Of a stretch of 62,294 nt of DNA, positions 13,529 through 49,168 are shown one piece after another. The first letter of the stretch is position 1. Each line of letters starts with the position of its first letter. A program made the translations under genes and the position numbers. Origin of the DNA: an uncultured Flavobacteriales bacterium (GTDB lineage Bacteria; Bacteroidota; Bacteroidia; CAIKAF01); assembly GCA_903837495.1 (NCBI GenBank), contig CAILUT010000046.1:1-62294 (forward strand), given 5' to 3'. The notes beneath the pieces are model-generated. The model was not told where the DNA came from and did no database searches. It worked only from the letters and a program-made list of their open reading frames with translations.

Positions 13529-15022
13529 TTAATAGGTGAATCGGATTAGGCCATTGCCTGATCGAAGGCCGTTTGACATAGTGGCATTCGTTACCCCACC
13601 GGTATAACCGGAGCCACCGCCGCCGTGGCCGTCTTCGCCCGAACCGCCACCTCCATACCAACCTCCACCGCCCGATCCAGAATGACCTGAAGGGTGATTT
13701 CCTGCAGCTCCTCCTTGTCCAAAGGTGCCTGGCTGTCCCGGGTAACCTGCTACGCCTGCAACGCCGCCCGCATTTTGAGAACCCCCACCCCCACTTTGAG
13801 CCCCGCCGTGATTGCCCCCATTTCCATTGGATCCGCCCCCGTGTCCTGCTATTCCAACACAGCCCGACCATTCCGCTCCGCCTCCGCCTCCGGCCACAAT
13901 GATGCGATTGTTAAGGGTTTGCCCATTTATGCGAACATCGCTTCCCCCACCCCCTGCGGCACAAGTTGTGGTGAAATTACAACTGCTTCCGCCTCCATTC
14001 CAACCGGGGGTATTGCCAGAACCGCCCGCTCCTCCCACATAGATGTACAATGTTTGACCTGAACTAACGGCTAAATTCCCCTTTGCATACCCGCCTAAAC
14101 CCCCCAATATACAGCCTGAATTATTCGTGGCAGTGCCCCCTTGACCGCCCCAACATTCAATTTGAAGCGAACAAATCCCTGCCGGAACTGTCCACGATTG
14201 AACGTTGCCACTGTAATTAAAATCCACCGCTGTATTTCCAAGGGGCAGGCAATTGACCACGGTTAGGTTTTGCTGCAAACTATCTACGCATCCATTGGCA
14301 TCTGTAATGCGATGAAAAACCGAAACGACGCCCGACTGCGACCAAGTAACCGAAGGACTAGGAGAGGTAGAGGTTGCGGGGCTTCCGTTTTGAAAGGTCC
14401 AAAAATGGGTGCCGGATTGTGTCGAAGGCACCATGGTAGTAGCTAAATTTATCGATGCCGTTGTAGGGTTAAAGCCCGGATTGGGCAAAGCGGGCGAAAG
14501 CAGAACAGGGAATGGCAAAGAGGACCCACATGCATTATCGGCAGTTACCCACAGCGTATCGGCAAACGAATTTAAAACAGAAACGTACAAAGTGCTTCCA
14601 CCTTGCCCCGAGTCAATTTGTAGGCCTTGAGGCGCCTGCCAGGAATAAGAGCTTGCCCCCGACACAGCAGCGACAACAATTCCATGGCCGGAAGTTCCTG
14701 GACAAAATCCGGAGGGAACTTGCACCTGCGTTGGGGCTGTAGGAGCCGAATTGCAATCGCAAGCCAAATATTTCCAGCCCGAAGGCGTTTTCCCTTCAAA
14801 ACATTTAGAATCGGTGTTGAAAATGATAAGGCCTTCCGCCGGATTGGATATGGCATTTCGTTGATTGGTGGTCAACCTTGTAGGCAAAAAACCTTTGGTT
14901 GTGTCGGCCAACTCTAAAATTGCAGATGAATCTGGCAGGCCAGCCTGATTTGATATCAAAACCCCTTGAGCCTGAGTAAGCCCATAAAAAGCGGCAAACA
15001 AATAAACAAGGAAGCGATTCAT
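13529..15022 (-). CDS. Secreted protein with ALK-like glycine-rich domain
   Basis: The 497-residue product has a signal peptide (MNRFLVYLFAAFYGLTQAQ). A tail-fibre-like opening common in Bacteroidota follows (DSSAILELADTTKGFLPTRL then NQRNAISNPAEGLIIFNTD), then two Ig/PKD-like stretches. The last 210 residues are strongly Gly-rich, with runs such as AGGGGSDVRING, VAGGGGGAEWSG and GGGGWYGGGGSGEDG. This matches the glycine-rich domain type known from ALK/LTK receptors and many bacterial surface proteins, which may pack as polyglycine-II helices. The protein ends in IRFTY without a clear T9SS sorting domain. ATG at 15022 is chosen because it opens the signal peptide. Confidence 0.8.
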   Translation of the reverse strand: MNRFLVYLFAAFYGLTQAQGVLISNQAGLPDSSAILELADTTKGFLPTRLTTNQRNAISNPAEGLIIFNTDSKCFEGKTPSGWKYLACDCNSAPTAPTQVQVPSGFCPGTSGHGIVVAAVSGASSYSWQAPQGLQIDSGQGGSTLYVSVLNSFADTLWVTADNACGSSLPFPVLLSPALPNPGFNPTTASINLATTMVPSTQSGTHFWTFQNGSPATSTSPSPSVTWSQSGVVSVFHRITDANGCVDSLQQNLTVVNCLPLGNTAVDFNYSGNVQSWTVPAGICSLQIECWGGQGGTATNNSGCILGGLGGYAKGNLAVSSGQTLYIYVGGAGGSGNTPGWNGGGSSCNFTTTCAAGGGGSDVRINGQTLNNRIIVAGGGGGAEWSGCVGIAGHGGGSNGNGGNHGGAQSGGGGSQNAGGVAGVAGYPGQPGTFGQGGAAGNHPSGHSGSGGGGWYGGGGSGEDGHGGGGSGYTGGVTNATMSNGLRSGNGLIRFTY

Positions 15023-15263
15023 AGTTACAGGGTTCTTTGGTTCGTATTTCAAAGATAATCGGATTTTAATGTTGCGGTTAAAATTCAAGGAAGTCCGAAA
15101 GGCGGCCGGAATAAAAGCATGAAATCAAAGAAGAGCGCCGCCGTTCAATGGACATGGAAACCACCAACCCACTTTAATTGAAAACCGGGTGTTTTTAAAA
15201 CCGTTTTTATGCATTCCAGGGTTGTTTTAATGTCCATAGCCCTCAAAATTCGCAACGGCAAGC

Positions 15264-15285: not shown

Positions 15286-15540
15286 ATGGCTCAATATGTC
15301 ATTCATGTAACGGTTATGCCGCTGGAAGAATTGCTAGACCCGCAGGGAAAAGCCGTAGAGCGTGGCTTGCAAGCCTTGGGCTTAGATTCGGCAACATCGG
15401 TTAGGGTGGGAAAGCAAATCCGGTTTGAAGTGCAAGCCGAATCGGACTCAGAGGCAGAAGCCATGGCAGAACAGGCCTGCAAGGCCCTATTGGCCAATGC
15501 CGTTATGGAATATTATTCGTTTCGAGTAGAGGCGAACTAA
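15286..15540 (+). CDS. purS: Phosphoribosylformylglycinamidine synthase subunit PurS
   Basis: The 84-residue protein has the PurS pattern: VIHVTVMPLEELLDPQGKAVERGLQALG, then VRVGKQIRFEV and the C-terminal MEYYSFRVE. PurS dimers bridge PurQ (glutaminase) and small PurL in the fourth step of purine synthesis. It is a lone gene here; purQ and purL are not in the window. It converges with the HIT gene and their last 4 bp overlap. A good -7 box precedes it. Confidence 0.92.
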   Translation: MAQYVIHVTVMPLEELLDPQGKAVERGLQALGLDSATSVRVGKQIRFEVQAESDSEAEAMAEQACKALLANAVMEYYSFRVEAN

Positions 15541-15935
15541 AAAAAAGCCGATTCCCGCAATTTGGCCGCAAGTTGGGCAAGCTGCTCCGGATCGGCCCGT
15601 TCCGCCGAGCGGTGCAAATTCATGTCGTCCATGGTATTGGCAGGAATTAAATGGATGTGCACATGAGGCACTTCAAAGCCAGCAATAGCCCAACCAATCC
15701 GTTTTGAAGGCAGTTCTCGATGCAACATGGAACCTACCCTGTGGGCAAATTCCGACAAACGAGCAAAATGGGCTGAATCCATGTCCTGAACATGGTTTAT
15801 TTCCTGCTTAGGAAACACCAAGGTGTGCCCGGTATTTCGGGGAAAAACATCTAGAATCGCTAAGAATTCGGTGTCTTCTGCAACCACATGACAGGGTATT
15901 TCTCCCTGAATCATGCGGGTAAACAAACTGCTCAT
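15537..15935 (-). CDS. HIT family nucleotide-binding protein
   Basis: This histidine-triad protein has 132 residues, starting SSLFTRMIQGEIPCHVVAED and carrying HTLVFPKQEINHV and the triad VPHVHIHLIP near residue 92. HIT proteins hydrolyse nucleoside phosphoramidates or dinucleotides; the physiological substrate here is unknown. Its start overlaps the greA stop by 4 bp (ATGA), so the two are a translationally coupled pair, a linkage often seen in Bacteroidota. Confidence 0.94.
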   Translation of the reverse strand: MSSLFTRMIQGEIPCHVVAEDTEFLAILDVFPRNTGHTLVFPKQEINHVQDMDSAHFARLSEFAHRVGSMLHRELPSKRIGWAIAGFEVPHVHIHLIPANTMDDMNLHRSAERADPEQLAQLAAKLRESAFF

Positions 15936-16402
15936 TCCGCGTTTATAGAAATAACCTTGAATTGAATTAAACCCCCTGGTGCTGTGATTTGGGCGATGTC
16001 GCCCACAGATTTTCCTAGCAATCCCTTCCCAATGGGTGAATCCACCGAAATTTTACCGGCCTTAAGGTCGGCTTCGCGTTCAGAAACAATCTGATAGGTC
16101 ATTTCTTGGTTGTTCTTCAGGTTTTGAATTTTAACCCGGGCCAGCAAATAGACCTTGGTGTTGTCCATTTGACCTTCTTCGATGATCCGAGCTTTGTCAA
16201 CCGTTTGCTGCAGTTTAGAAATCCGCAACTCAAGCATGCCTTGGGCTTCGCGGGCCGCATCATATTCGGCATTTTCAGACAGGTCGCCTTTGTCTCGTGC
16301 TTCGGCAATTTGGGCCGATATCTTAGGACGCTCCTTCACCAGGTCTTCCAATTCCGTTTTGAGCTTATGATAGCCCTCTTTTGTTAAATACGTATATGCC
16401 AT
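15932..16402 (-). CDS. greA: Transcription elongation factor GreA
   Basis: The 156-residue protein has the GreA architecture. The N-terminal coiled coil carries the signature EARDKGDLSENAEYDAARE around residues 34-52, whose acidic tip enters the RNA polymerase secondary channel and stimulates transcript cleavage. The C-terminal domain holds VDSPIGKGLLGKSVGD. It forms a two-gene operon with the HIT gene. A strong terminator between it and the upstream PorV-like gene shows it is transcribed from its own promoter. Confidence 0.97.
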   Translation of the reverse strand: MAYTYLTKEGYHKLKTELEDLVKERPKISAQIAEARDKGDLSENAEYDAAREAQGMLELRISKLQQTVDKARIIEEGQMDNTKVYLLARVKIQNLKNNQEMTYQIVSEREADLKAGKISVDSPIGKGLLGKSVGDIAQITAPGGLIQFKVISINAE

Positions 16403-16421: not shown

Positions 16422-16449
16422 AAACAGAAAGCCCGGAGGCTTTCTGTTT
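16422..16449 (-). terminator. Rho-independent terminator of the TonB/PorV operon
   Basis: A 12-bp stem AAACAGAAAGCC / GGCTTTCTGTTT encloses a 4-base CGGA loop. On the minus strand it is followed by TTGCTTTTA. It lies 25 bp past the stop of the PorV-like gene and before greA. Confidence 0.85.
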
Positions 16450-16474: not shown

Positions 16475-17593
16475 TTAAAGCAAGATGTGGACTCCGAAGG
16501 TGTGCACCCCGCTAAAATTGTAAGTGGCCCGGAAAGAATAATCCACACCTATTTTGGTGCGGCCTTCTTTTTTGAGGGGACTTTCGAACGAGAAGCCAGC
16601 GGAAGGGCCTGTAAAAGCATTCAACAAATCGGCTTGCACCCCATCGCGCTCTCCAAAAATTCCGCTTTCAAAAGAATATCCGCCACGCAACTGCAACATA
16701 GAGTTAAAGTCGTATTCCAATCCCAACAAGAACTGGTCTTTGGTAAAGCTGTTGGTGGTAAAGTTAAAGGCGGTGGTTAATTTGTGCTTTTTTGCCATAT
16801 ACTGAACATAGGCGAGGCCGATGTTCATTAATGCAGGCATTTCGAATTCAGCGGAACGCTGTTGCTGAGAAACGGGTGCACCGAAAATGGGGCTTTCGTT
16901 TTTCACCGTCAAACCATCGCCGGTGGCAATCATTCGGGGCCCAATGTTCTTCAGGTTAATTCCAAAGTGCAGATTGTCTTCGCCAAAACCGGGCGCCGTT
17001 TTCTTTTTATTGCCGATGCTTGTTTTGTAAATAATACCGGCATCAATGGCAAAACCCGCGGCCGAAACGTTGGCAATAGCCTGGTTAATCAGCCTGACCG
17101 TTACCCCTCCATGAATGGATTTTGAGAAGGATTTCGCGTACGAAATGCCTAAATTCAGGTTGTTCACACTGTACACCGAACCTGTGCCCTCAGGCTGTTC
17201 GGTAGTGGTTTCCTGAATGTCGCCCGACCCTAGGCTGGTAACAGAAATACCCAAGACTCCTCGATTTTTTCCCAAATTTTGGGCAAAACCAAAGGCACTG
17301 ATACCAATGTCTGACCCAGCCAACCAACGGGTATGGGTGAACAGCAATTCTGTGCGGTCCGTAAATGCCAAACCCGCTACATTCATGAATTCCGACTCTA
17401 AACCTCGGCCAATGGCGGTGCTAGAATTGGCCCAACCGGAACTGCGTGCCCAAGGGTTAATCAACAAATCGGTGCTGCCTGCACTGCCTGCGCGGTCTTC
17501 GTTTCCGGCTTGCAGAGATAGGCAAGAAAAAGCAAGAGCCAGCGCGGCTAGGCTTCTCACCTTGTGGGTTTTAGTAAAAAATGAGTTCATCAT
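16475..17593 (-). CDS. PorV/PorQ family outer-membrane beta-barrel protein
   Basis: The 372-residue protein has a signal peptide followed by AGSAGSTDLLINPWARSSGWA, the hallmark N-terminus of the PorV/PorQ (UPF0164) barrels. About fourteen alternating beta-strand segments follow, ending in aromatic/hydrophobic VHTFGVHILL as expected for Bam-inserted barrels. PorV is the T9SS shuttle that takes cargo from the translocon to the attachment complex. Paralogues like this one, linked to a TonB receptor and a giant sorting-domain protein, may serve a dedicated cargo. It is the last gene of that operon, 16 bp after the giant gene. Confidence 0.85.
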   Translation of the reverse strand: MMNSFFTKTHKVRSLAALALAFSCLSLQAGNEDRAGSAGSTDLLINPWARSSGWANSSTAIGRGLESEFMNVAGLAFTDRTELLFTHTRWLAGSDIGISAFGFAQNLGKNRGVLGISVTSLGSGDIQETTTEQPEGTGSVYSVNNLNLGISYAKSFSKSIHGGVTVRLINQAIANVSAAGFAIDAGIIYKTSIGNKKKTAPGFGEDNLHFGINLKNIGPRMIATGDGLTVKNESPIFGAPVSQQQRSAEFEMPALMNIGLAYVQYMAKKHKLTTAFNFTTNSFTKDQFLLGLEYDFNSMLQLRGGYSFESGIFGERDGVQADLLNAFTGPSAGFSFESPLKKEGRTKIGVDYSFRATYNFSGVHTFGVHILL

Positions 17594-17609
17594 ACTTCAG
17601 TTCTAATCG

Positions 17610-20600
17610 TCAGAAGGAATCCAAGTCTATTGGGCGCATCACCCCGTACCATTTCACAATGCGTTCTCCAATGCCTGGAGCTTTAATGTGAAACAGATAC
17701 AAGCCACTAGCTACGGGAATATTGGCATAATTCTTCATGTCCCAGTCGAGTGAGGTTATGGAGCTGGTTCCTTTTTCCAGCCTCCGCACCAAGGTGCCAT
17801 TCAATGCATAAATCGTTACCGTACAGTTGTCGGGTAGGTTCACCACTTTCACCCGGCTATCTACTTGACTGGTTTCGTAGTTGCTGGCGGCATAGTATGG
17901 ATTGGGGACCACCTGAATCAAATCGAGCGCAGCACGGGCTGCTGGATTGTCGCCAATGGTCGGAGTCAACTTGTCCATTGAGAAGTTGTACATCGGACGG
18001 TTGTTGTTCGATGGATTGGCCACGGTGTGAACACCGCTAAGTCCAGTTTGATAGCGTTTGGTTACCCGTAGGCTTAAGCGAATGTCGCTGCTCAACCAAT
18101 TGGTGCCTTTGGCATGGTAGGGAATACCTGCCCATGCACAGCTTCTCCACAAATTACGCTGAATGCTTGATGGCATTACGCTGCGTGGTTTTCCTGTGTT
18201 GTCCAAAAAATACCCTTTCATGGTTTCCCCAGCATCGTAGCCCGGCATGGATGCAAAAGGTTGTTCCAGCGGATTGGCCCCAAACACATACACATAATGT
18301 TTGCCCGCGGCAAGAAAATCCCCGAAATTTGAAATTACACCTTCTAAGGTTGTAAAATCTACAACAGAAGGGTTAAACAACATATCACGCCCATTGTTGC
18401 CGGACAGGTAGGAGTCCTCGCCAAAGGCCAGATTCAACCGTTGACCTGTTTCAACATCAATGGCATACCCTGGGAACCAAGAGTATCCCCACTCCGAAAT
18501 GTAATTCGCATCGCTTGGATTGCTGCTGCTTCCTGCACCGGGAATAGCAAACTTTCCGTCCTTGTCAACGGAAGGACTGTGGCGGAGCGAAAGTTTTTCG
18601 GGGCCTGTCGGCAAACTTGGATGTTTGTAGGCCAAAGCCGAGAAATCTTGGGTTTCAATAACAGGACAGCGGGTCCACTTTGAACGGTCGTTGGTCAACA
18701 CCAAATCAACCGAAGGAAGGATGTTTGGCATTTTGGCCGCCGTAATTACACGCCCTTCAATGCTTACAATGGCACCAGAAGCAAGCTGATGCGCTGGCAA
18801 TTGGTTTTGGTCTTCATCTTGATAGATGCTGGCCGAGCTTGTAAGCATGTAGGGTACAATACCTCCACCACCAAAGAAAGAGATATTGCGCTCAAACGAA
18901 GCCTCAGGATCCATCCAAAGCAATTCAGTGTTGCCACCCACAACCAACTCTATAAAGTTTGAGTTCCATTGAGGATCCTGTTCAGAATCGGTCGTGCCTG
19001 ACCTAATCCAGTTTCCTGCATTGCCGGTATTTTGGTCTCCAAAGAAACCCAGCCAATTGTTGCCGGGCTTGGAATTGGTAGAGGTGGCCGAAATGAATCC
19101 GTTTTCAATTTCGCGGCGATCAAACAAAATGCCATTAAGCACCGTGTAGGCAGGGCCGGGATTGGTAACCTGATTTAAGGTGATCGAGAAACCAAGGAAT
19201 GGATCCAAACCGGGTATGTCTCTACGGTCATACATTATTTGCTCATACGGAGTTGACATATCTTTTTCAGACAAAGCCACCGTATCTCCAAAAGGACTTC
19301 CGGGTTCAAGCAATACCCAGCGGGCATTGGGATTGATGGTTCCATCGGCTCCTGAATTTGCATCAATAACCCGAAGTTGATAATTGCCGCCCCTAACCTT
19401 TAGAGGATCTATAACTTTCACATTTACAGGCCCCATTCCGTAATCGTACACCAAGGTGTCGGCCCGGTGGTCGGGTGAATTAAGAATCTTTGTCTCTGTT
19501 TCAGAAGTTAACATTAGGTTGTTGCCTCCGTTTCCTCGGCCTTCTACCCGAACAATTTGAGGCCCAGAACCGTACAAGGCATTCAGAACCGTACCATTTA
19601 ACTCAGGAACAGGAATATGGGGAATGGCTGTAGTTACTTTAATGTTTCTGCGGCCTAAGAAAAACGGCTCCTTTTGACCATCCAATTGCAATGGATCATT
19701 GGGGTCGTAATTCCTATAATTGTTGTATCCGTAAGCCAAGGTCATGTAGTAGTATTTCTTGTGGTTCACCAACCGCTTATCGCCCAAAGCGAACTGATCG
19801 TCTTTTACGTTGAACGAGTGAACAATCCCTTCGTTGCTGCCGTTTACTTTGACCTTGGGAACGGAAAATCCGAGCTCTTCATCGAATTCAAAGTTTACAA
19901 TTCGACCAATTGGATTTCCGTTGGCATCAAAATCGCGCATGTCGCATTGAGCAACCAAACGAGCTTTGGTGTTTCCGTCATCGCCAAAAATATCTGAAGC
20001 AGTTACCGTGGCGTCTTTCAATTGGTAAATCATATACCCTTGAAAACGAATCATCCGGTCGTTGAACACAGAATCTATCTTATTGCCCAAATTAATGGTT
20101 GTAATTACAGGAAAACTAGGATTGGTATTGAACCCATACTGAGTTCCAACCACGTTCCCGCTTCCATCAAACAATTGGATGGTGGTGTCGGCATTCGAAC
20201 CATTGATGGGAGTAGAGTTAAAAACAAATAGGGTATCTCCATTGTCGATAATCAAACGAGACCAAGCCGGAGAAAAAACAGTGGTATCCTTTGTAATTGG
20301 AGTCGTTTTCAATTCAAACTCAGGAATAAAATAATTCAATTCCTCGTATTCCTCTAAGTAGTTGTTGGAAATAGCTTTGTTGGTCAAGAAAAGAACCAGT
20401 TCCCGGTCAAGCTCTTGCACATTCAAATCAGGCGCATCTGGACCGTTTAATACTCGGAAGCAGTTTTCGAACAAAGACTGAGCCTTTTGATCGGCCGTCA
20501 ATACTTTGATAACAGACTCATAGGGGTCTCCAGTCGATGTTCTGGCCCAAACCACTCCGATGGTAATATCGTTTACCAAACCCGGCTTTAGGGTAAAAGG

Positions 20601-22133
20601 ACCTGCAGATTGCATAAAACGACGGTCGCCCGGCGTGTTCGGAGCAGCTCCCGTATTTTGCTCCCGCCAGTCAAATCCAGGGTCTATCCCTTTGGTTCCC
20701 CAATTAAAGGGGTCTGAATCGCCAGGAAACATAAAATCAGAAATGATGTTGGTCGAACCATTTCCGGGTGTGGGGTAACCATCCCCACCATACACCATCC
20801 GGGTATTGTCCAACCAAAATCCACGCAAATAATTGTAATAGTTGGGGGCAGTGCTGGGGTCGCGCGTTGGGCCTGTGCCCGGATTGTTGTAATACACATA
20901 GCGACGCATCCCAAAGCGCTCATTGTCGGCAATGGTATCGTTAAACCCAAGACCATTGATTCCAAAGGCACTGCTCGCACGCGTAGTATCGGTAAGATTT
21001 GATATGTCTAACGGATTAAACACCTCAGCCACACCATTCGAATCCAAATAAGGGCCCTCAAAGAAATCCACACCTATCGCAGGCGGATTGCTGCCATATC
21101 CAAGCTGGCCTGAAAAGTTTTCATCAAAGGCATCTCCGTTGTACATAAATCCGAAACCCCGCTCTACATCACAACCCGTATAGTCGTCAATCGCTCCACC
21201 AATGTCCGAATCAATATTGATTCCAAAATAGCAGGAAGATAAGGTTGTTGTACCGCGGTTGATTAACTCGTAGTTGTAAAAGGTCATGTTGTTGATCTCG
21301 TCGTTCGTGTTGAAACCAAAACCTTGTGCCCGGATTTCCATGCCAATCGGATCGCCTTGAGATTCGCCGTGGATGTTTCCTTTGTCGTTGAATACCCACC
21401 ATAGGGTAAAGTCACCGTATAAAAAAGCAGAACGGTCGGAAGAGCAATCTACATTGTTGTCAAGGTCATAGAAAGGATAGTCGCAATCTTCGTACCGATA
21501 CACTCCGTCGCCGTTGGCATCGTAAAACGGAGCCAAAAGCGATTGCATGTTTAGGTGTTGACCATCGGCTTGAACAATCGGATTTCCAGGCCACTTCATA
21601 ATCACCTCGGGAACTTGGTATCCCTCGCAGCTTGGATCGTCGGGATCAATGCAGTTGCACAAACGGAATTGTTCAACCTGCGAGCGAGAAATAGCCCACA
21701 ATTGGTCGTACAAATCGCAGGTTTCATCATCAATTTCAGCAGTTCCAAGTACATCTAGGGGGCCGGTATAATAGTCAACACCGCCGGAACGATAACGCTG
21801 AGCTGCAACCCGAAGCGTTTGAGTATTGGCATCGCGACCACCAATAATCAGCGTACCTACATACATTGAGTGGCGACCAGATCCTTTGGGGATTTCATAT
21901 CGGGCATTTTGAACCAAATCCCACCACATATCTCCGCCCGAATGAATCAAAGCACGAACGTTGTTTACATTTAACTCGGCCGAGGACGAAGGCGGCAAAC
22001 AATCGGCTGCCAATTTCTTGTCAGGACCTACAGACGCTTTGCCGCCCGATTCGCCAACAACCTTATAGGCATAGGCGGGAACCGTTAAAGATACCGACAA
22101 CAGAAAAACAAAAATAGACCGGACCTTATTCAT
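17610..22133 (-). CDS. Giant surface protein with T9SS-like C-terminal domain
   Basis: The 1507-residue protein starts with a signal peptide (MNKVRSIFVFLLSVSLTVPAYA). The body is rich in Asp/Asn/Gly and aromatic residues, with calcium-loop-like stretches (YDANGDGVYRYEDCD, DLDNNVDCSSD). Near the C-terminus VVPNPYYAAS, VTIYALNGTLVRRLEK and VASGLYLFHIKAPG reproduce the type A sorting-domain pattern. It does not end in the usual basic strand but continues to VMRPIDLDSF. It sits between the TonB-dependent receptor (44 bp) and the PorV-like gene (16 bp), so the three are one transcript. The start at 22133 rather than 22181 is chosen for the signal peptide. Function unknown. Confidence 0.8.
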   Translation of the reverse strand: MNKVRSIFVFLLSVSLTVPAYAYKVVGESGGKASVGPDKKLAADCLPPSSSAELNVNNVRALIHSGGDMWWDLVQNARYEIPKGSGRHSMYVGTLIIGGRDANTQTLRVAAQRYRSGGVDYYTGPLDVLGTAEIDDETCDLYDQLWAISRSQVEQFRLCNCIDPDDPSCEGYQVPEVIMKWPGNPIVQADGQHLNMQSLLAPFYDANGDGVYRYEDCDYPFYDLDNNVDCSSDRSAFLYGDFTLWWVFNDKGNIHGESQGDPIGMEIRAQGFGFNTNDEINNMTFYNYELINRGTTTLSSCYFGINIDSDIGGAIDDYTGCDVERGFGFMYNGDAFDENFSGQLGYGSNPPAIGVDFFEGPYLDSNGVAEVFNPLDISNLTDTTRASSAFGINGLGFNDTIADNERFGMRRYVYYNNPGTGPTRDPSTAPNYYNYLRGFWLDNTRMVYGGDGYPTPGNGSTNIISDFMFPGDSDPFNWGTKGIDPGFDWREQNTGAAPNTPGDRRFMQSAGPFTLKPGLVNDITIGVVWARTSTGDPYESVIKVLTADQKAQSLFENCFRVLNGPDAPDLNVQELDRELVLFLTNKAISNNYLEEYEELNYFIPEFELKTTPITKDTTVFSPAWSRLIIDNGDTLFVFNSTPINGSNADTTIQLFDGSGNVVGTQYGFNTNPSFPVITTINLGNKIDSVFNDRMIRFQGYMIYQLKDATVTASDIFGDDGNTKARLVAQCDMRDFDANGNPIGRIVNFEFDEELGFSVPKVKVNGSNEGIVHSFNVKDDQFALGDKRLVNHKKYYYMTLAYGYNNYRNYDPNDPLQLDGQKEPFFLGRRNIKVTTAIPHIPVPELNGTVLNALYGSGPQIVRVEGRGNGGNNLMLTSETETKILNSPDHRADTLVYDYGMGPVNVKVIDPLKVRGGNYQLRVIDANSGADGTINPNARWVLLEPGSPFGDTVALSEKDMSTPYEQIMYDRRDIPGLDPFLGFSITLNQVTNPGPAYTVLNGILFDRREIENGFISATSTNSKPGNNWLGFFGDQNTGNAGNWIRSGTTDSEQDPQWNSNFIELVVGGNTELLWMDPEASFERNISFFGGGGIVPYMLTSSASIYQDEDQNQLPAHQLASGAIVSIEGRVITAAKMPNILPSVDLVLTNDRSKWTRCPVIETQDFSALAYKHPSLPTGPEKLSLRHSPSVDKDGKFAIPGAGSSSNPSDANYISEWGYSWFPGYAIDVETGQRLNLAFGEDSYLSGNNGRDMLFNPSVVDFTTLEGVISNFGDFLAAGKHYVYVFGANPLEQPFASMPGYDAGETMKGYFLDNTGKPRSVMPSSIQRNLWRSCAWAGIPYHAKGTNWLSSDIRLSLRVTKRYQTGLSGVHTVANPSNNNRPMYNFSMDKLTPTIGDNPAARAALDLIQVVPNPYYAASNYETSQVDSRVKVVNLPDNCTVTIYALNGTLVRRLEKGTSSITSLDWDMKNYANIPVASGLYLFHIKAPGIGERIVKWYGVMRPIDLDSF

Positions 22134-22177
22134 AAGAATGGGGTTTAACGAAGTATATTTCAACATAATGGAATCAA

Positions 22178-25100
22178 TCAAAAGTTCAAAATGGCGCCAA
22201 TACGCATGCGGCGTGGAAGGCTAAAATTGCGGGGGTCGTTCACCCTTAAATTGTACATGTCGCGGAATGCAACCGGGTCAATTTGACCGTTAATAAACGG
22301 TTGAAACTGCGGTGCAGTCAAATACCCGTCGTCGTCGGCATTGCCCGTGGCGGCATACACTCCAATCGTGTTTTGAATGTCAAATACATTCAACACCTGC
22401 AAATAAATGTTCAAGGTGGATTTTTTGCGGCTGTCGTTGTCTTTGCCGTCTTTCTTTTTACCCCAGAATATATTGATGTCTTTGTCAACCATCAAATCAA
22501 CACCAAATTCCCAAGGCAGACGGTTTCCATTGATGGAACCTTCTAAAGATGCCTGCCCACCGCCAGAGAGCAATTGGGTGCCGGTAACGTTAGACTGACC
22601 ACTGTAGGGAACTCCAGACCCTCCACGCAAGGTGGCACTGGCTCCAAAATTTTGAAGCAAAAACTTTAACGATTGAGGGCCATTGTATTTGTTCGGCCCC
22701 TTTTCTTCGCCGCCAAAACGGTAAATCAAGAAGGCGGTAAACAAGTGCCTTCTGTCGTAAGTGGTAGGTACGGTAGTCCGCAGGTTTGGTTGCCCTGAGT
22801 TCACCAAGTTTAATGCAGAGGTGTTGTCGGAACCCGTTCCATCGGCAAACTGCAAAGTATAGGTCGCCGTTAATTTTAGATTTCCTGTACGACGCAATTC
22901 GTACTCAAAGGTTACCCCTTTAACTGTTCCAAAGTCGATGTTGTCCCAACCTCCATAAGTACGCGGATACGCTTCATTTACCCGAACCAAGGCAATCATG
23001 TCGCGCAATTCCCGGTAAAAGGTTGAAATTTTAAGCGCACTAGAAGGAGTTAACAACTGACGGAAGCCAAGAGAGAAGTCTGTGGTACGCTCAGGACGCA
23101 GGTTCGGATTATTGAAGAAGGTTCCACCTGAATTATAAGAGGCATTGTCCCAGAAAAAATAATCGAGCGGATTGAGACGTACTGCCCCAGACGGACGTTG
23201 GGTTAGCACGTCATAATACGCTGTAAAGCCAACTTTATCTGAAATGGGGAAACTGAACGAAACCCGTGGCATGATATTGATTTGTGGATCGTAATCGCGG
23301 AAGGCTCCCGATGGAGTAAATCCAGGACTTTGTATGTCGTCGGCGGCGTCCACCAAGAAGGGTTGAACCCGACCGGAAGCGGTGCGCAACAAGGCAGGGT
23401 CATTGATGACCTCGCCAGACGCATTGTACCAAACGTTGTCGTTCCTATAGCCCAAAATGGCCGTAGGGTTTTGACGGTCGTTCACATACACCACATAATT
23501 GGTTCCGATGTTTCCAGGGTGGTTAACGCTGTTGCCGTTCAGCTCAATAACCTCGGCGGCACTCCGCGTCCGGTACAATGAAAATCGATCGGCAAGCACC
23601 GATTGGTTGGCATCAAAACGGTCAACCCGAACCCCGACATTAAAAATGATGTCTTTAAATGAAAACTTATCTGAAATGTAGCCGGCCAAATAAATGGGTT
23701 GGAATGACCCAATGGGCCGGGTCGCGTTTCCGTATTGATCCTTCGCAGTAAAGAAATCGTCAAACGTTACATTTTGAGTAGTTCTATTGCCGTACACATC
23801 GTATCCCCAATACGTAACCAAATTGTTCCCTTGATTCAACAACTCATCCGCACTAAACATATTCAGACGGAAGGTAGAAGGGTCTAATTCATCCACGTCT
23901 ATGGTTTCAAGTCCATCGGAATTCAAACCCAATTGCTGACGCAAATTCCAATCGAAAAAGGCTTGACCTACACCAAATTTATACCCGGTTTCGGCCGTGC
24001 GCTGTTCGTTTTCACGGTACAAGGCGGGATAGTTGATGGTGTCTTTAAACACCCCGGTTACCGGGTCGTAAACTGGAGCCGGTGCCGCAGTATCAATAAC
24101 CCCTAGGTGCTGATTGGCCAATTGCCAGCCCAAACGCCACAATCCAACAGGAGCCAAACTATAAAAATTGTCGTTCCGTTGTTCAAACTCAAAGCCCAAC
24201 TGGAAGTCATGATTCCCGATGGTTGCAGACCCTTGGCCTACCACGCGGAATTGATTGTTGTCGGAGGTGCTAAACCCATTGAATTGGGTGCCAGGGTGAG
24301 ACCAAAGGTTGTAAATGCTCCGCGGCGATTGGCCATTCAGCAAGGCTCCACCCTGTTGAATGTTGGGCAAATTGTCGTAAACCCCAAACGAATTATCAAA
24401 TAAGGTGTAGTATTGACTGGTAATGGCCGATGAAGTTGGGTTTAAGACTCCAGGTTGGTAGGTAACCAAGGTATCTGCAAATCCGCCAAACAAATACCCC
24501 GACATGTTGGTTTTGGGGTCTAACCCATAAGAAGGATATACCGGAGCTCGGAAGGTTTCAAAGCGACCAACGTGTCCATAATTAAAGAAATTGTCTTTGT
24601 GCATGGCATCTTGCGAAGTGCTTTCTCCACGCAGGTAATCCACTTGCAATGAAACCAAGGCGTTGCGCAGCCCTTTGTTTGATGAATCGTTGGGATTGGC
24701 AAACCGGTGGGTAATCCGACCCCAGGCATTCCAAGTAAAATCGGTGGATTCCCCGTTGCTTTCCCAGTTGAATAGAGAAGACGTGTAGGTGCCGCCATCG
24801 CGACCTCCACGGGCCTGTGACAAGTTCACAAAACCCCCGGCGGTAATAATGGTACGCTCAGAAGCAAGGATATCAAATTTACCTTGCATGTTTATGGACG
24901 AACTGGCTACATTTTGACGTGCACGAATGGTCTCGAAATCTTGACGGCGTAAAAACTCGGCGTTAAGCAAAGCTCCCGTTCCGGTTTCCGACAAGCGAAT
25001 GGGGTTCTGCTGAATGCTTTGAAGCACATCGGGCTTTACCCTCCATATATTTCCAGCTACTGGCGAAGGATCCCCGCTGTAACCCCCTTCTACCGTTCCT

Positions 25101-25927
25101 AAAAACCCAACAACAGGCACTTTAACTCCTTCCCGGTTTTTCCTTTTAATAAGTGGCCCCCCAACAGCACCGCTGAACAAATGGTTTTGATAGTTGTCTA
25201 AAAATTGAGAGGTACGCCCCTCAACCGTGCCAAACCACTTATTGGAAATTCCTCGGGTGGTCAACAATATGATGCCGCCGGTAGCGTCGCCAAAAGCTGC
25301 AGGAACACCCCCCAATATAACTTGGGTTTCTTCTACCGCTTGCTGCGGTAGGTTGGCAGAACCTCCACGAATCTTAACCCCATCAATGAAAATCGTAGCA
25401 CCCGAACGGGCTCCACGAATGTTTCCGATTTCCCCGTCTCGGCTAAAAACCCCACCAACCGTGGTTACTGCCGACAAAGGACTGCGGCCTGGAAGCTTCA
25501 GGATGTCTTCGCGGCGTATCGTCGTCCGCACCATGGTTTCATCTCGCTTAATCAACGGAACGGTTTCTTCTACAAAATCGTAGCCTTCTACTACTATGGC
25601 TTCAGAGCGCAACTGAGCATCAATAAAGGTGATGTTGCCTCCCGATTCTACGGTAATCCCTTTGGTTAGTTTGTTGAAACCGATGGCCGAGAAAACCAAT
25701 TGGTACTTTCCGGCAGGTACCGCCTTCATCCAGTACGTGCCATTCATGTCGGTTGAGGAACCACGGACTTGTACGCCATCCTTCGTGAGCACCACGTTCG
25801 CAAAAGGCAAGGGCTCACCCTTGTCGTCTTTTACAACACCCTTTAATTCCCCAGTTGAACCCTGGGCAAAAATGGTTCCTTGCATCGAAACCACAAACAG
25901 TATCAGCGGAAGTAATTTTTTAATCAT
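22178..25927 (-). CDS. TonB-dependent receptor with carboxypeptidase-regulatory-like N-domain
   Basis: The 1249-residue protein has a signal peptide (MIKKLLPLILFVVSMQGTIFAQ) and a CarboxypepD-reg-like domain (about residues 25-105: STGELKGVVKDDKGEPLPFANV). The plug domain follows (about 120-240, with GNIRGARSGATIFIDGVKIRGG and GVPAAFGDATGGIILLTTRG), then a large barrel ending ...MRIGAILNF. Such receptors import large substrates or take part in surface export complexes. No SusD partner is present; instead it heads an operon with a giant surface protein and a PorV-like barrel. A TAAATTTA box at 25963 might be its -7 element. Confidence 0.92.
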   Translation of the reverse strand: MIKKLLPLILFVVSMQGTIFAQGSTGELKGVVKDDKGEPLPFANVVLTKDGVQVRGSSTDMNGTYWMKAVPAGKYQLVFSAIGFNKLTKGITVESGGNITFIDAQLRSEAIVVEGYDFVEETVPLIKRDETMVRTTIRREDILKLPGRSPLSAVTTVGGVFSRDGEIGNIRGARSGATIFIDGVKIRGGSANLPQQAVEETQVILGGVPAAFGDATGGIILLTTRGISNKWFGTVEGRTSQFLDNYQNHLFSGAVGGPLIKRKNREGVKVPVVGFLGTVEGGYSGDPSPVAGNIWRVKPDVLQSIQQNPIRLSETGTGALLNAEFLRRQDFETIRARQNVASSSINMQGKFDILASERTIITAGGFVNLSQARGGRDGGTYTSSLFNWESNGESTDFTWNAWGRITHRFANPNDSSNKGLRNALVSLQVDYLRGESTSQDAMHKDNFFNYGHVGRFETFRAPVYPSYGLDPKTNMSGYLFGGFADTLVTYQPGVLNPTSSAITSQYYTLFDNSFGVYDNLPNIQQGGALLNGQSPRSIYNLWSHPGTQFNGFSTSDNNQFRVVGQGSATIGNHDFQLGFEFEQRNDNFYSLAPVGLWRLGWQLANQHLGVIDTAAPAPVYDPVTGVFKDTINYPALYRENEQRTAETGYKFGVGQAFFDWNLRQQLGLNSDGLETIDVDELDPSTFRLNMFSADELLNQGNNLVTYWGYDVYGNRTTQNVTFDDFFTAKDQYGNATRPIGSFQPIYLAGYISDKFSFKDIIFNVGVRVDRFDANQSVLADRFSLYRTRSAAEVIELNGNSVNHPGNIGTNYVVYVNDRQNPTAILGYRNDNVWYNASGEVINDPALLRTASGRVQPFLVDAADDIQSPGFTPSGAFRDYDPQINIMPRVSFSFPISDKVGFTAYYDVLTQRPSGAVRLNPLDYFFWDNASYNSGGTFFNNPNLRPERTTDFSLGFRQLLTPSSALKISTFYRELRDMIALVRVNEAYPRTYGGWDNIDFGTVKGVTFEYELRRTGNLKLTATYTLQFADGTGSDNTSALNLVNSGQPNLRTTVPTTYDRRHLFTAFLIYRFGGEEKGPNKYNGPQSLKFLLQNFGASATLRGGSGVPYSGQSNVTGTQLLSGGGQASLEGSINGNRLPWEFGVDLMVDKDINIFWGKKKDGKDNDSRKKSTLNIYLQVLNVFDIQNTIGVYAATGNADDDGYLTAPQFQPFINGQIDPVAFRDMYNLRVNDPRNFSLPRRMRIGAILNF

Positions 25928-45330: not shown

Positions 45331-47229
45331 ATGAAAAACCTGTACCTCATACTTTTTATGGCCATTGGTCTTGGTTTCAAGGCTCAAGCTCAATGTCCAG
45401 GCTGCGTTCCAAATACGGCTTTGTGCCAAGGCAGCAACGGTCCTTGCCCGAATTACATGGATACGGCCACCTCTGGCCAAGCCTACGAAGACACCCTGAC
45501 TTTTTTTCTGCCCAAGCAAGTAGATGCTACCGTTCAATCGGGCGGGTTGTTCAGCTGGGTGGACTTTCTTAAGTTCGAAATCCTGAGCATCAGCGGCTTG
45601 CCTTTTGGCATCAGTTGGGAATGCAGCCCCGCAAACTGCACCTATTTCCCCAGCCAGTTTCCGAACGGCACCTTTGCCTGCATTCGGTTTTGTGGAACGC
45701 CTTTGGCCGCTCCCGGAACCTACACCTTGACCATCGACACCAAAGGCACGGTTCAAACCCCTTTTGGTGCCCAGGCCGGAAACGAAATATTCACCATCGA
45801 CCTAGAAGTTCTGCCGCCAATGGGGGGCAACAGCGGTTTTAGCTTTTCGCCCTCCACAGGTTGCGCTCCTTTAACCGTTCAATTTACCAACCAAAACCCC
45901 TCGAACGGATATCAGCCAGGCCCACAAAACCTGGGCTATCAATACAGCTGGGACTTTGGAAACGGCTTAAGCAGCACCGCCGAGAATCCAGCTCCGATTG
46001 TGTATGGCATGGGAGGGAACTACCTGATTAGCTACCAGGCTGTTATTGATACATTGCCGTTCTTTTTGCAGTCGCTTACGGTAAATACCGTGAATTGCAC
46101 CGACATTCCCTTTTTTGGGGATCATCCAGACTTGTACCTAAGGGTGTTGGATGCGGGTGGAAATCTGCTGCTAACCACCAACAACAACCAAGTGAATTTT
46201 CCCCCTGGCAGTTCACCGCATACATGGAACATCAATCTGCCCGTTGCAAATGGCCCCTTAGCCGTGGAAATTATGGATGCAGACGGAGGATTGTACGGCA
46301 ACGACGACAACTGCTACAACGATCAAACCGGCGGGTATATTATTCCCCTAACTACCCCGCAGGCCAACCAATACAACGTCCCTGTGGTTCAAAGCTTTAA
46401 CCAAAATGGCTTGTCGTTTTCGTACACCATGCAAAAAACAGCTTTTGTGCTCACAAGTTCAGACACCCTTACGGTCAATGCCACACCTCCATTTAGTTTG
46501 CTTTCGGTGTCGCCTGGCACCACTGCCTGTCAGCGCGATTCGGTTCGTTTGGAAGTATATCCAGGCTTTGCGTATGAATGGTACCAAGACGACACCCTGT
46601 TGGTAAGTACTTCGGGCTCGTATTATTATGCTTTGACAGCAGGCAATTACAAGGTGAAAATTATTGACCCCAACACGGGTTGCTTTACTTGGAGCGGCGA
46701 CACCAACCTGATTTTTCAGCCCAGCACCCCTCCTGGATTTCCGAACGTAGGCATATCGTTGAACAACGGAGTTTTAAGTTCAAACCTGAGTGGTACTTGG
46801 ACCTATCAATGGATTTTCTGGAACGGAAGCAGCTGGAATCCCATTGCACCTCCCTTGGGCAGTGTTGCCAATTTAACCCCAAGCCAAAGCGGGAATTATG
46901 CCTTAATCGCCACCAATTCATTTGGTTGCGGCGACACCTCAAATGTGATCGTGTTTGGCGATGCCGGCATGGATTCTTGGCTGCAAACCAACATCGTTTT
47001 ATACCCCAACCCCGCAAGCCGCGAAATCTACATCCGCTGGCCTGGGGGACTTAGTGGGCAATGGAAACTGAGCTTGCATGACCTTTCTGGACGCAGCGTT
47101 CAAGCGTGGACAGAACAGGTGGAAAGCGGTCAAGAAAGCCGCATTGGCATTTCCTTGCCTGCCGGCACCTATATGCTGCGCGGGAACGGCTCGGCAGGGC
47201 ATTGGATCCGGCGCGTGGTGGTGAAATAA
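45331..47229 (+). CDS. Secreted PKD-domain protein with T9SS type A sorting domain
   Basis: The 632-residue protein has a signal peptide (MKNLYLILFMAIGLGFKAQAQ). Its Cys-rich N-terminal region (CPGCVPNTALCQGSNGPCP) resembles Ig-like adhesin starts. A PKD domain follows near residue 180 (PLTVQFTNQNPSN, YQYSWDFGNGLSST), then further Ig-like stretches. The C-terminal sorting domain is clear: TNIVLYPNPASREIYIRWP, LSLHDLSGRSVQAW, LPAGTYMLRG and basic WIRRVVVK. It is predicted to reach the surface through T9SS. ATG 45322 is an alternative start three codons upstream. Confidence 0.9.
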   Translation: MKNLYLILFMAIGLGFKAQAQCPGCVPNTALCQGSNGPCPNYMDTATSGQAYEDTLTFFLPKQVDATVQSGGLFSWVDFLKFEILSISGLPFGISWECSPANCTYFPSQFPNGTFACIRFCGTPLAAPGTYTLTIDTKGTVQTPFGAQAGNEIFTIDLEVLPPMGGNSGFSFSPSTGCAPLTVQFTNQNPSNGYQPGPQNLGYQYSWDFGNGLSSTAENPAPIVYGMGGNYLISYQAVIDTLPFFLQSLTVNTVNCTDIPFFGDHPDLYLRVLDAGGNLLLTTNNNQVNFPPGSSPHTWNINLPVANGPLAVEIMDADGGLYGNDDNCYNDQTGGYIIPLTTPQANQYNVPVVQSFNQNGLSFSYTMQKTAFVLTSSDTLTVNATPPFSLLSVSPGTTACQRDSVRLEVYPGFAYEWYQDDTLLVSTSGSYYYALTAGNYKVKIIDPNTGCFTWSGDTNLIFQPSTPPGFPNVGISLNNGVLSSNLSGTWTYQWIFWNGSSWNPIAPPLGSVANLTPSQSGNYALIATNSFGCGDTSNVIVFGDAGMDSWLQTNIVLYPNPASREIYIRWPGGLSGQWKLSLHDLSGRSVQAWTEQVESGQESRIGISLPAGTYMLRGNGSAGHWIRRVVVK

Positions 47230-48376: not shown

Positions 48377-49168
48377 ATGAAACCACTTTTCCTCTCCCTA
48401 TCTGCCATCTTACTCAGCGCCTCATTGACCTCGGCCCAAACCAAAACCATTGCCTACCAAGAACTTCCCGATGCCATGGGAAATGCCACCGGCTCTGGTA
48501 TGTTTTTCGGTGCTACCATGGACTCCGACACCATCACGATAACCTTCGGCGGTATTTTTGACCGTTGGTTGGCATTGGGCTTTGGCACCTCTATGAGCCA
48601 AACCGATGTTTTAATGTTTTCGGAAGGGAAATCTGGAGCCAGCCATGCCCAAGATTGGTTTGATTACTACAACAGCAGCGGAAGCATTGCGGGTGTAAAC
48701 AAAGACGCCTCTCAAGATTGGATCATAATTTCAAGCAATATACTGGGTGGGGTACGGGCTGTAACGGCAAAACGTGCTCTAAATACCGGCGACAACAACG
48801 ATGCTGTCCTTTCATTCAACGATGCCACCCTTCGCCTGGTTTGGGCAAAAGGTGGCTCGCCCTCGTACACGATTAACAACCACGGCCCTTCAAACCGGGC
48901 CTTTGGCATAAATCTTCCTTGGCAATCTACCACCGGCCTTGAAGATGCAAAAGCCGGAATTTCTTGGTCACAACAAAACCGACATTTCGACATTCAAATA
49001 ACAAATGCCACCGGCTTTGAAGTAGAAGCAACCGACATGCAAGGCAAACAAGTTTTTTCGGGCAAAAATGTGGCTTCCTTTGACCTATTGGATGCCCGCC
49101 CAGGAGTCTATGTGCTGAGCATCTCAGCCAACGGAAAAACCAGTACCTCCAAAATACTCCTGCAATAA
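48377..49168 (+). CDS. Secreted DOMON-like protein with T9SS sorting domain
   Basis: The 263-residue protein has a signal peptide (MKPLFLSLSAILLSASLTSAQ) and a domain of about 160 residues with DSDTITITFGGIFDRWLALGFG, DVLMFSEG and LRLVWAKGGSPSYTINNHG. This pattern fits DOMON domains, which bind heme or sugars in extracellular redox proteins. The C-terminal 70 residues are a type A sorting domain (ITNATGFEVEATDMQGKQVF, LLDARPGVYVLSISANG, SKILLQ). It has its own promoter and ends at a terminator-like hairpin. Confidence 0.82.
   Translation: MKPLFLSLSAILLSASLTSAQTKTIAYQELPDAMGNATGSGMFFGATMDSDTITITFGGIFDRWLALGFGTSMSQTDVLMFSEGKSGASHAQDWFDYYNSSGSIAGVNKDASQDWIIISSNILGGVRAVTAKRALNTGDNNDAVLSFNDATLRLVWAKGGSPSYTINNHGPSNRAFGINLPWQSTTGLEDAKAGISWSQQNRHFDIQITNATGFEVEATDMQGKQVFSGKNVASFDLLDARPGVYVLSISANGKTSTSKILLQ

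Follow-up and report, generated by a model that had tools for sequence, protein, structure and literature searches.

A conserved gene trio encoding a TonB-dependent receptor, a giant surface protein and a PorV-family barrel in Bacteroidota: a possible uptake complex built by type IX secretion

In a stretch of 62,294 nucleotides from an uncultured Flavobacteriales bacterium (the whole stretch is called the window here; host genome of 2.5 Mb in 67 contigs), three successive genes encode a TonB-dependent receptor, a giant surface protein and an outer-membrane barrel of the PorV/PorQ family. This trio recurs with the same gene order in several classes of the Bacteroidota. Its barrel belongs to a separate clade of the PorV family, and the giant ends in a C-terminal sorting domain (CTD) followed by a conserved tail. 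We propose, with a probability of about one half, that the trio is a counterpart of the SusCD system built by the type IX secretion system (T9SS), in which the giant would stay uncut on its own barrel and act together with the receptor in uptake.

Gene order and conservation of the trio

The three genes are located on the minus strand and are transcribed in the order receptor, giant, barrel (Table 1). The gaps, read from the sequence, are 44 bp between receptor and giant and 16 bp between giant and barrel. The reading frame of the giant spans 17610-22181 if begun at a TTG codon, and the ATG at 22133 gives the protein of 1507 residues. Directly after the barrel gene follows a hairpin (16449-16422) of 12 pairs with a T-rich tail, which has the most pairs among the 18 terminator-like sites found, a number close to the mean of 15.5 in shuffled sequence. 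The original prediction of three successive envelope genes with gaps of 16-44 bp and a strong terminator is thus borne out by the open reading frames, the sequence and the hairpin.

Table 1 Features of the trio and its downstream flank in the window
Feature	Position	Strand	Basis
TonB-dependent receptor, N-terminal CarboxypepD_reg and plug, 1249 aa, C-terminal F	22178..25927	-	
Giant surface protein, 1507 aa from ATG; signal-peptide-like N-terminus (by eye)	17610..22133	-	
Giant N-terminal domain, residues about 45-561, predicted beta-supersandwich	20451..22001	-	model
Giant CTD, seven-stranded Ig-like, residues about 1396-1499, nearest PorZ and PorU	17637..17948	-	
Giant conserved C-terminal tail RPIDLDSF, residues 1500-1507, beyond the last strand	17613..17636	-	
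Outer-membrane barrel of the PorV/PorQ family, 372 aa; forms a third clade next to PorV and PorQ	16475..17593	-	
Terminator-like hairpin 3' of the barrel gene	16422..16449	-	
greA; syntenic neighbour in Bacteroidia, not counted in the system	15932..16402	-	
Gene taken to be of the HIT family; syntenic neighbour, not counted in the system	15537..15935	-	

Further along the minus strand, a reading frame of 519 residues (13529-15088) combines an ALK/LTK-type glycine-rich domain (4e-26) with a PKD-like domain. On the plus strand of the window, two more type A sorting domains of the T9SS exceed the cut-off (46999-47226 and 48986-49165).

Of 20 loci of the giant that represent many families within the class Bacteroidia, 15 show receptor, giant and barrel in the same order and on the same strand, and the remaining five hold the giant without either partner. 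A scan of named genomes covered the best 80 of 589 relatives of the giant; 11 of these were without a flank, and 66 of the 69 flank-complete Bacteroidia loci hold all three genes with order and strand kept. The nearest named relatives of the giant in this set come from a Flavobacteriales and a Bacteroidetes metagenome-assembled genome (94-96% identity). After filters for coverage and 90% identity, 68 and 71 giants were kept. All three genes were also found with the same order and strand in 20 of 20 loci from Bacteroidota classes other than Bacteroidia; these were picked from the best matches and are therefore no random sample. Metagenome assemblies make up much of the collections, and loci were taken as best matches and not at random.

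At the level of whole genomes, the giant is present in 245 of 295 genomes of the class and a trio-type barrel (E value of 1e-60 or better) in 231. Giant and barrel occur together in 230 genomes, the giant only in 15, many of which are incomplete assemblies, the barrel only in one and neither in 49. Fisher p values for this co-occurrence are uncorrected for kinship. A lack of co-occurrence in other genomes would have refuted the original prediction, and these surveys find the families together. A chance neighbourhood is ruled out by the recurrent gene order together with the co-occurrence in genomes.

Downstream of the trio, greA and the HIT gene follow wherever the Bacteroidia sequence extends far enough (64 of 64 loci), and they are absent from this position in all 20 loci of other classes. 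This constant flank points to vertical inheritance at a single site in Bacteroidia and is uninformative on the substrate of the trio. Upstream, mostly on the opposite strand, a small lipoprotein-like gene with cysteines (for example 1147-1611 in locus L070) was detected by BLAST in 10 of 20 and 19 of 80 loci, 29 of 100 overall. Its product presumably resembles a Rieske-like lipoprotein.

Genomes of other classes may carry as many as 21 genes of the PorV family. This number of matches was found in one such genome (G345, loci L188 and L260-L269), where at least eight belong to full trios. The trios of this genome are mostly diverged, and their cargo proteins measure about 680 to 1270 residues, several being smaller than the giant.

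Sorting domain, tail and barrel

The C-terminus of the giant matches the FlgD_ig family (6.8e-5) and the PorZ model NF052228 (3.5e-6). The latter match covers the CTD only and reaches 25.7 bits against a cut-off of 260. The type A sorting domain model TIGR04183 gives 17.6-17.7 bits (E 0.0027) for the giant of the window, below its cut-off of 23, and matches 19 of 21 members of the giant family at E values up to 0.05. The family-model scan listed no type B CTD for the giant. A structural model of residues 690-1507 (mean pLDDT 86.5) has an Ig-like domain of seven strands at its end. The solved structures closest to this fold are the CTDs of PorZ (Z 10.5 over 90 residues, 2.5 Å, 26% identity) and PorU (Z 8.5 over 88 residues), followed by RemA (6.8), RemZ (6.7) and RgpB (6.6). 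The sorting-domain-like C-terminus seen in the original prediction is therefore real at the level of the predicted fold. In a sequence-level search against solved structures the giant gave weak matches, again to PorU (E 0.2) and PorZ (E 0.55). When a CTD profile of the family was run against the tested loci of the own genome, PorU was the top match besides the giant (15.3 bits, E 0.0022). PorZ scored 5.5 bits, or 8.0 bits when a shorter version of its reading frame was used, which is no better than some ordinary CTDs or stray reading frames, so that the profile test backs PorU and not PorZ. PorU and PorZ are described as proteins whose CTDs are kept and not cleaved, and which bind PorV and PorQ (PMC10202324, PMC5562754). 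The nearest solved folds are thus both of retaining proteins, in agreement with the predicted CTD of the kept kind (PMC10202324).

The giant ends with the sequence ...KWYGVMRPIDLDSF. The original prediction was that an acidic VMRPIDLDSF tail stands in place of the usual basic last strand. The extension is present, but in the model it comes after the last strand, which is formed by residues 1489-1497. Residues 1502-1507 have a pLDDT below 50 when the protein is modelled alone. Such low confidence fits a stretch that may fold on a partner, although low confidence alone is no proof of this. Of 72 complete C-termini from Bacteroidia, 66 end in F and 2 in Y; of 20 C-termini from other classes, 13 end in F, 3 in Y, 3 in L and 1 in I. 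The tail motif differs between classes and an aromatic or bulky last residue persists. A quirk of a single protein is ruled out by this conservation across the family.

A rival explanation is an ordinary T9SS cargo. PorU would cut the CTD and link the giant to LPS, the barrel would be a shuttle, and the receptor would be co-regulated but separate. The CTD fold and the similarity to TIGR04183 in 19 of 21 members fit this explanation, as does a genome that encodes a T9SS with PorU and PorZ. We nevertheless consider it unlikely. The CTD of the window stays under the TIGR04183 cut-off, its fold is nearer to the kept CTDs of PorZ and PorU, it carries a conserved extra tail, and the strict linkage with the receptor would be left unexplained.

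The barrel belongs to the PorV/PorQ family as defined by NF033709 (137 bits, cut-off 90), which is matched by 16 of 16 members of the barrel family at E values up to 0.001. It scores below the cut-offs of the equivalog models for PorV (NF033710, 68.8 against 250), PorQ (NF033711, 51.3 against 220) and PorV2 (NF052325, 33 against 325). A PorP model matches 3 of the 16 barrels weakly, the barrel of the window not being among them. Among solved structures, the best match of the barrel profile is the PorV of the SprA complex (E 2.1e-14). A tree was built from 76 PorV-family proteins, with SH-aLRT as the only support measure. In it, the 36 trio barrels form one clade (99), beside PorV (99), PorQ (100) and a further clade (100). 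The names PorV and PorQ were assigned in this tree by BLAST to the copies of the own genome; L223 and L239, both PorV entries, represent a single protein, and an entry labelled as fourth clade groups with PorQ. The own genome encodes one PorV, which adjoins PorU, one PorQ and one PorZ, and the trio barrel is an additional PorV-family protein. A third clade that co-occurs with the giant across genomes supports the predicted PorV-type partner dedicated to this cargo. The further clade was observed in Bacteroidia genomes (L252-L256, L258 and L259).

The pairs PorQ-PorZ and PorV-PorU of the T9SS attachment complex also consist of a PorV-family barrel and a surface protein with a CTD of the PorZ/PorU type. 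However, the trio barrel forms a clade of its own under the PorV and PorQ cut-offs, and the giant differs from PorZ and PorU by another N-terminal half, the extra conserved tail and the linked TonB receptor. Cargo proteins with type B CTD are likewise encoded directly before their own barrel, of the PorP/SprF type. For these cargo proteins a kept CTD has been proposed (PMC12618676, PMC9143113). In contrast to that system, the CTD of the giant is of the type A kind, the barrel belongs to the PorV family and a receptor gene is linked.

The own genome has a SprA match at 2300 bits and encodes PorV, PorU, PorQ and PorZ. The ordinary CTD model gives 73 matches in this genome, the giant not included. 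SprA was detected in 286 of 295 genomes of the class, in 243 of the 245 giant-bearing ones (the exceptions are G059, 95% complete, and G183, 56% complete) and in 32 of 32 tested giant-bearing genomes from other classes. Since SprA is nearly universal in the class, the co-occurrence fits dependence on the T9SS and is weak proof of it. The almost constant presence of SprA with the giant would also fit a part of the T9SS attachment machinery, a PorZ-like giant which binds LPS or capsule glycan and aids surface modification. The CTD closest to PorZ and PorU and the fold similar to glycan enzymes point in the same direction. Such a role is nevertheless very improbable. The giant is absent from 50 of the 295 genomes, 43 of which have SprA, so that the T9SS can do without it, and at least eight trios in one sampled genome would be odd for a core T9SS component.

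Receptor, N-terminal half and possible role in uptake

The receptor carries a CarboxypepD_reg domain (PF13620, 61.5 bits against a cut-off of 32.3). The plug domain is matched in 14 of 16 members of the receptor family at E values up to 0.01; the copy in the window reaches 22.7 bits, just under the cut-off of 23.9. A conserved stretch is located at the expected position of the TonB box. In the sequence-level search against solved structures the receptor found no match. In SusCD systems a TonB-dependent receptor with CarboxypepD_reg also adjoins a large surface protein, and the likeness extends to some paralogous trios that lie near glycoside hydrolase genes. SusCD differs from the trio by a SusD-family lipoprotein; the surface partner of the trio instead ends in a T9SS sorting domain and comes with a barrel of its own. 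Neither a SusD match (family models) nor a lipobox (by eye) was found in the giant.

The N-terminal half of the giant (residues 25-640) was modelled with a pLDDT of 84.2 and a pTM of 0.82. The best structural match is dextran dextrinase (Z 18.9 over 256 residues, 3.2 Å), and the model predicts a beta-supersandwich as in enzymes of the families GH15, GH65, GH94 and GH116. We take the matched domains to be the non-catalytic N-terminal domains of these enzymes. The shared fold, itself predicted, proves no function, and no catalytic activity is claimed for the giant. This half gave no sequence-level match to solved structures, and the family-model scan found no match outside the C-terminus.

The flanks of the diverged trios within the one genome (51 of 86 reading frames used; 25 of 73 Pfam families listed) contain GHL10 (3), GH16 (2), GH94 (1) and GH9 (1) domains and two sodium:solute symporters. 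Around the core trios of other classes (69 of 110 reading frames used), TPR, GWxTD, multihaem cytochrome and dehydrogenase domains were found and no glycoside hydrolase among the 25 of 102 families listed. A comparable arrangement is drawn for the alginate locus of Rhodothermus marinus, in which tonB, hypA and hypB are annotated as TonB receptor, T9SS type A sorting protein and PorV/PorQ family protein (PMC9530828). The annotated order is the same as in the trio, a likeness by annotation; hypA, within a polysaccharide locus, has about 727 aa compared with 1507 aa of the giant (PMC9530828). The three genes are not treated as one unit in the section on this locus (PMC9530828). A gene with a T9SS domain and a porV/Q gene are also mentioned around hmu clusters (PMC12106395). 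In the one open-access library searched, we found no paper that treats the three genes as one system. Together, the glycoside hydrolases near diverged trios and the order in the alginate locus make uptake the likeliest function.

The original prediction favoured a possible secretion or surface-assembly unit rather than nutrient import. In such a unit the receptor would place, energise or release the giant as surface layer, adhesin or envelope component. A single vertically kept locus next to greA in Bacteroidia is indeed more reminiscent of a core envelope function than of a variable nutrient locus, and the annotated neighbours of the trio in the window are not enzymes for one substrate. Nevertheless, this explanation seems somewhat unlikely to us, as the receptor has a plug and the conserved stretch at the TonB box position. 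The supersandwich fold, the paralogous trios near glycoside hydrolases and the order in the alginate locus (PMC9530828) likewise speak against an exclusion of nutrient import. The other part of the prediction, a cargo that would be retained by a dedicated PorV-type partner, gains support.

For the preferred uptake complex we infer the following steps. Receptor, giant and barrel would be exported by Sec, and the receptor and the small barrel would insert into the outer membrane. The giant would cross this membrane through the T9SS translocon (SprA/Sov) and would be picked up by the PorV-family barrel of the trio rather than by the general PorV. The uncut CTD and the aromatic tail would hold it there, as PorZ is held on PorQ, so that its large beta domains would sit over the TonB-dependent receptor. 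The ligand that the giant would then bind and the receptor would import is most likely a glycan or another organic nutrient. The giant would thereby take the role of SusD in SusCD, with a T9SS barrel and not a lipid as the anchor.

A broader reading, which we put forward tentatively, is that the third PorV-family clade and its tail-bearing giants, exempt from the sortase, represent an old branch of the T9SS that might build TonB uptake complexes throughout the phylum, the lid being fixed by a CTD tail and not by a lipid. Research on the T9SS has concentrated on PorV and on type A cargo whose CTD is cut. According to a proposal in a review, a CTD escapes cleavage when its cognate PorV-like barrel shields it, as for PorZ/PorQ and type B cargo (PMC10202324). 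With its own barrel clade and conserved tail, the giant-barrel pair opens a direct way to test this idea. The pair is present in most sampled genomes of the class as well as in other classes of the phylum. The trio ties secretion to TonB-dependent uptake in lineages that are mainly known from metagenomes.

Giants outside complete trios

Several giants have neither receptor nor barrel adjacent to them (L074, L076, L078, L079, L081, L126, L199, L202, L203, L205, L207 and L210, likewise the second giant of L085). One of the two partners is missing beside the giant in L111, L120 and L211. Solo giants and loci with one missing partner mean that the trio is not strictly obligate. The solo giants mostly have the same type of tail and, in the genomes checked, often share the genome with a trio. 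If the tail binds a barrel, they would need one from another locus. Were one barrel to serve both giants of a genome, a likeness restricted to the CTD would be expected. In ten pairs of a trio giant and a solo giant from one genome, no clear likeness of this kind emerged: the whole proteins are alike, and the similarity of the CTD exceeds the fit by more than one residual standard deviation in four. Two solo giants are adjoined by smaller proteins of 651-676 aa (L078, 4609-6639; L081, 4283-6238), which have an N-terminal region of the giant type and end in an apparently ordinary sorting domain.
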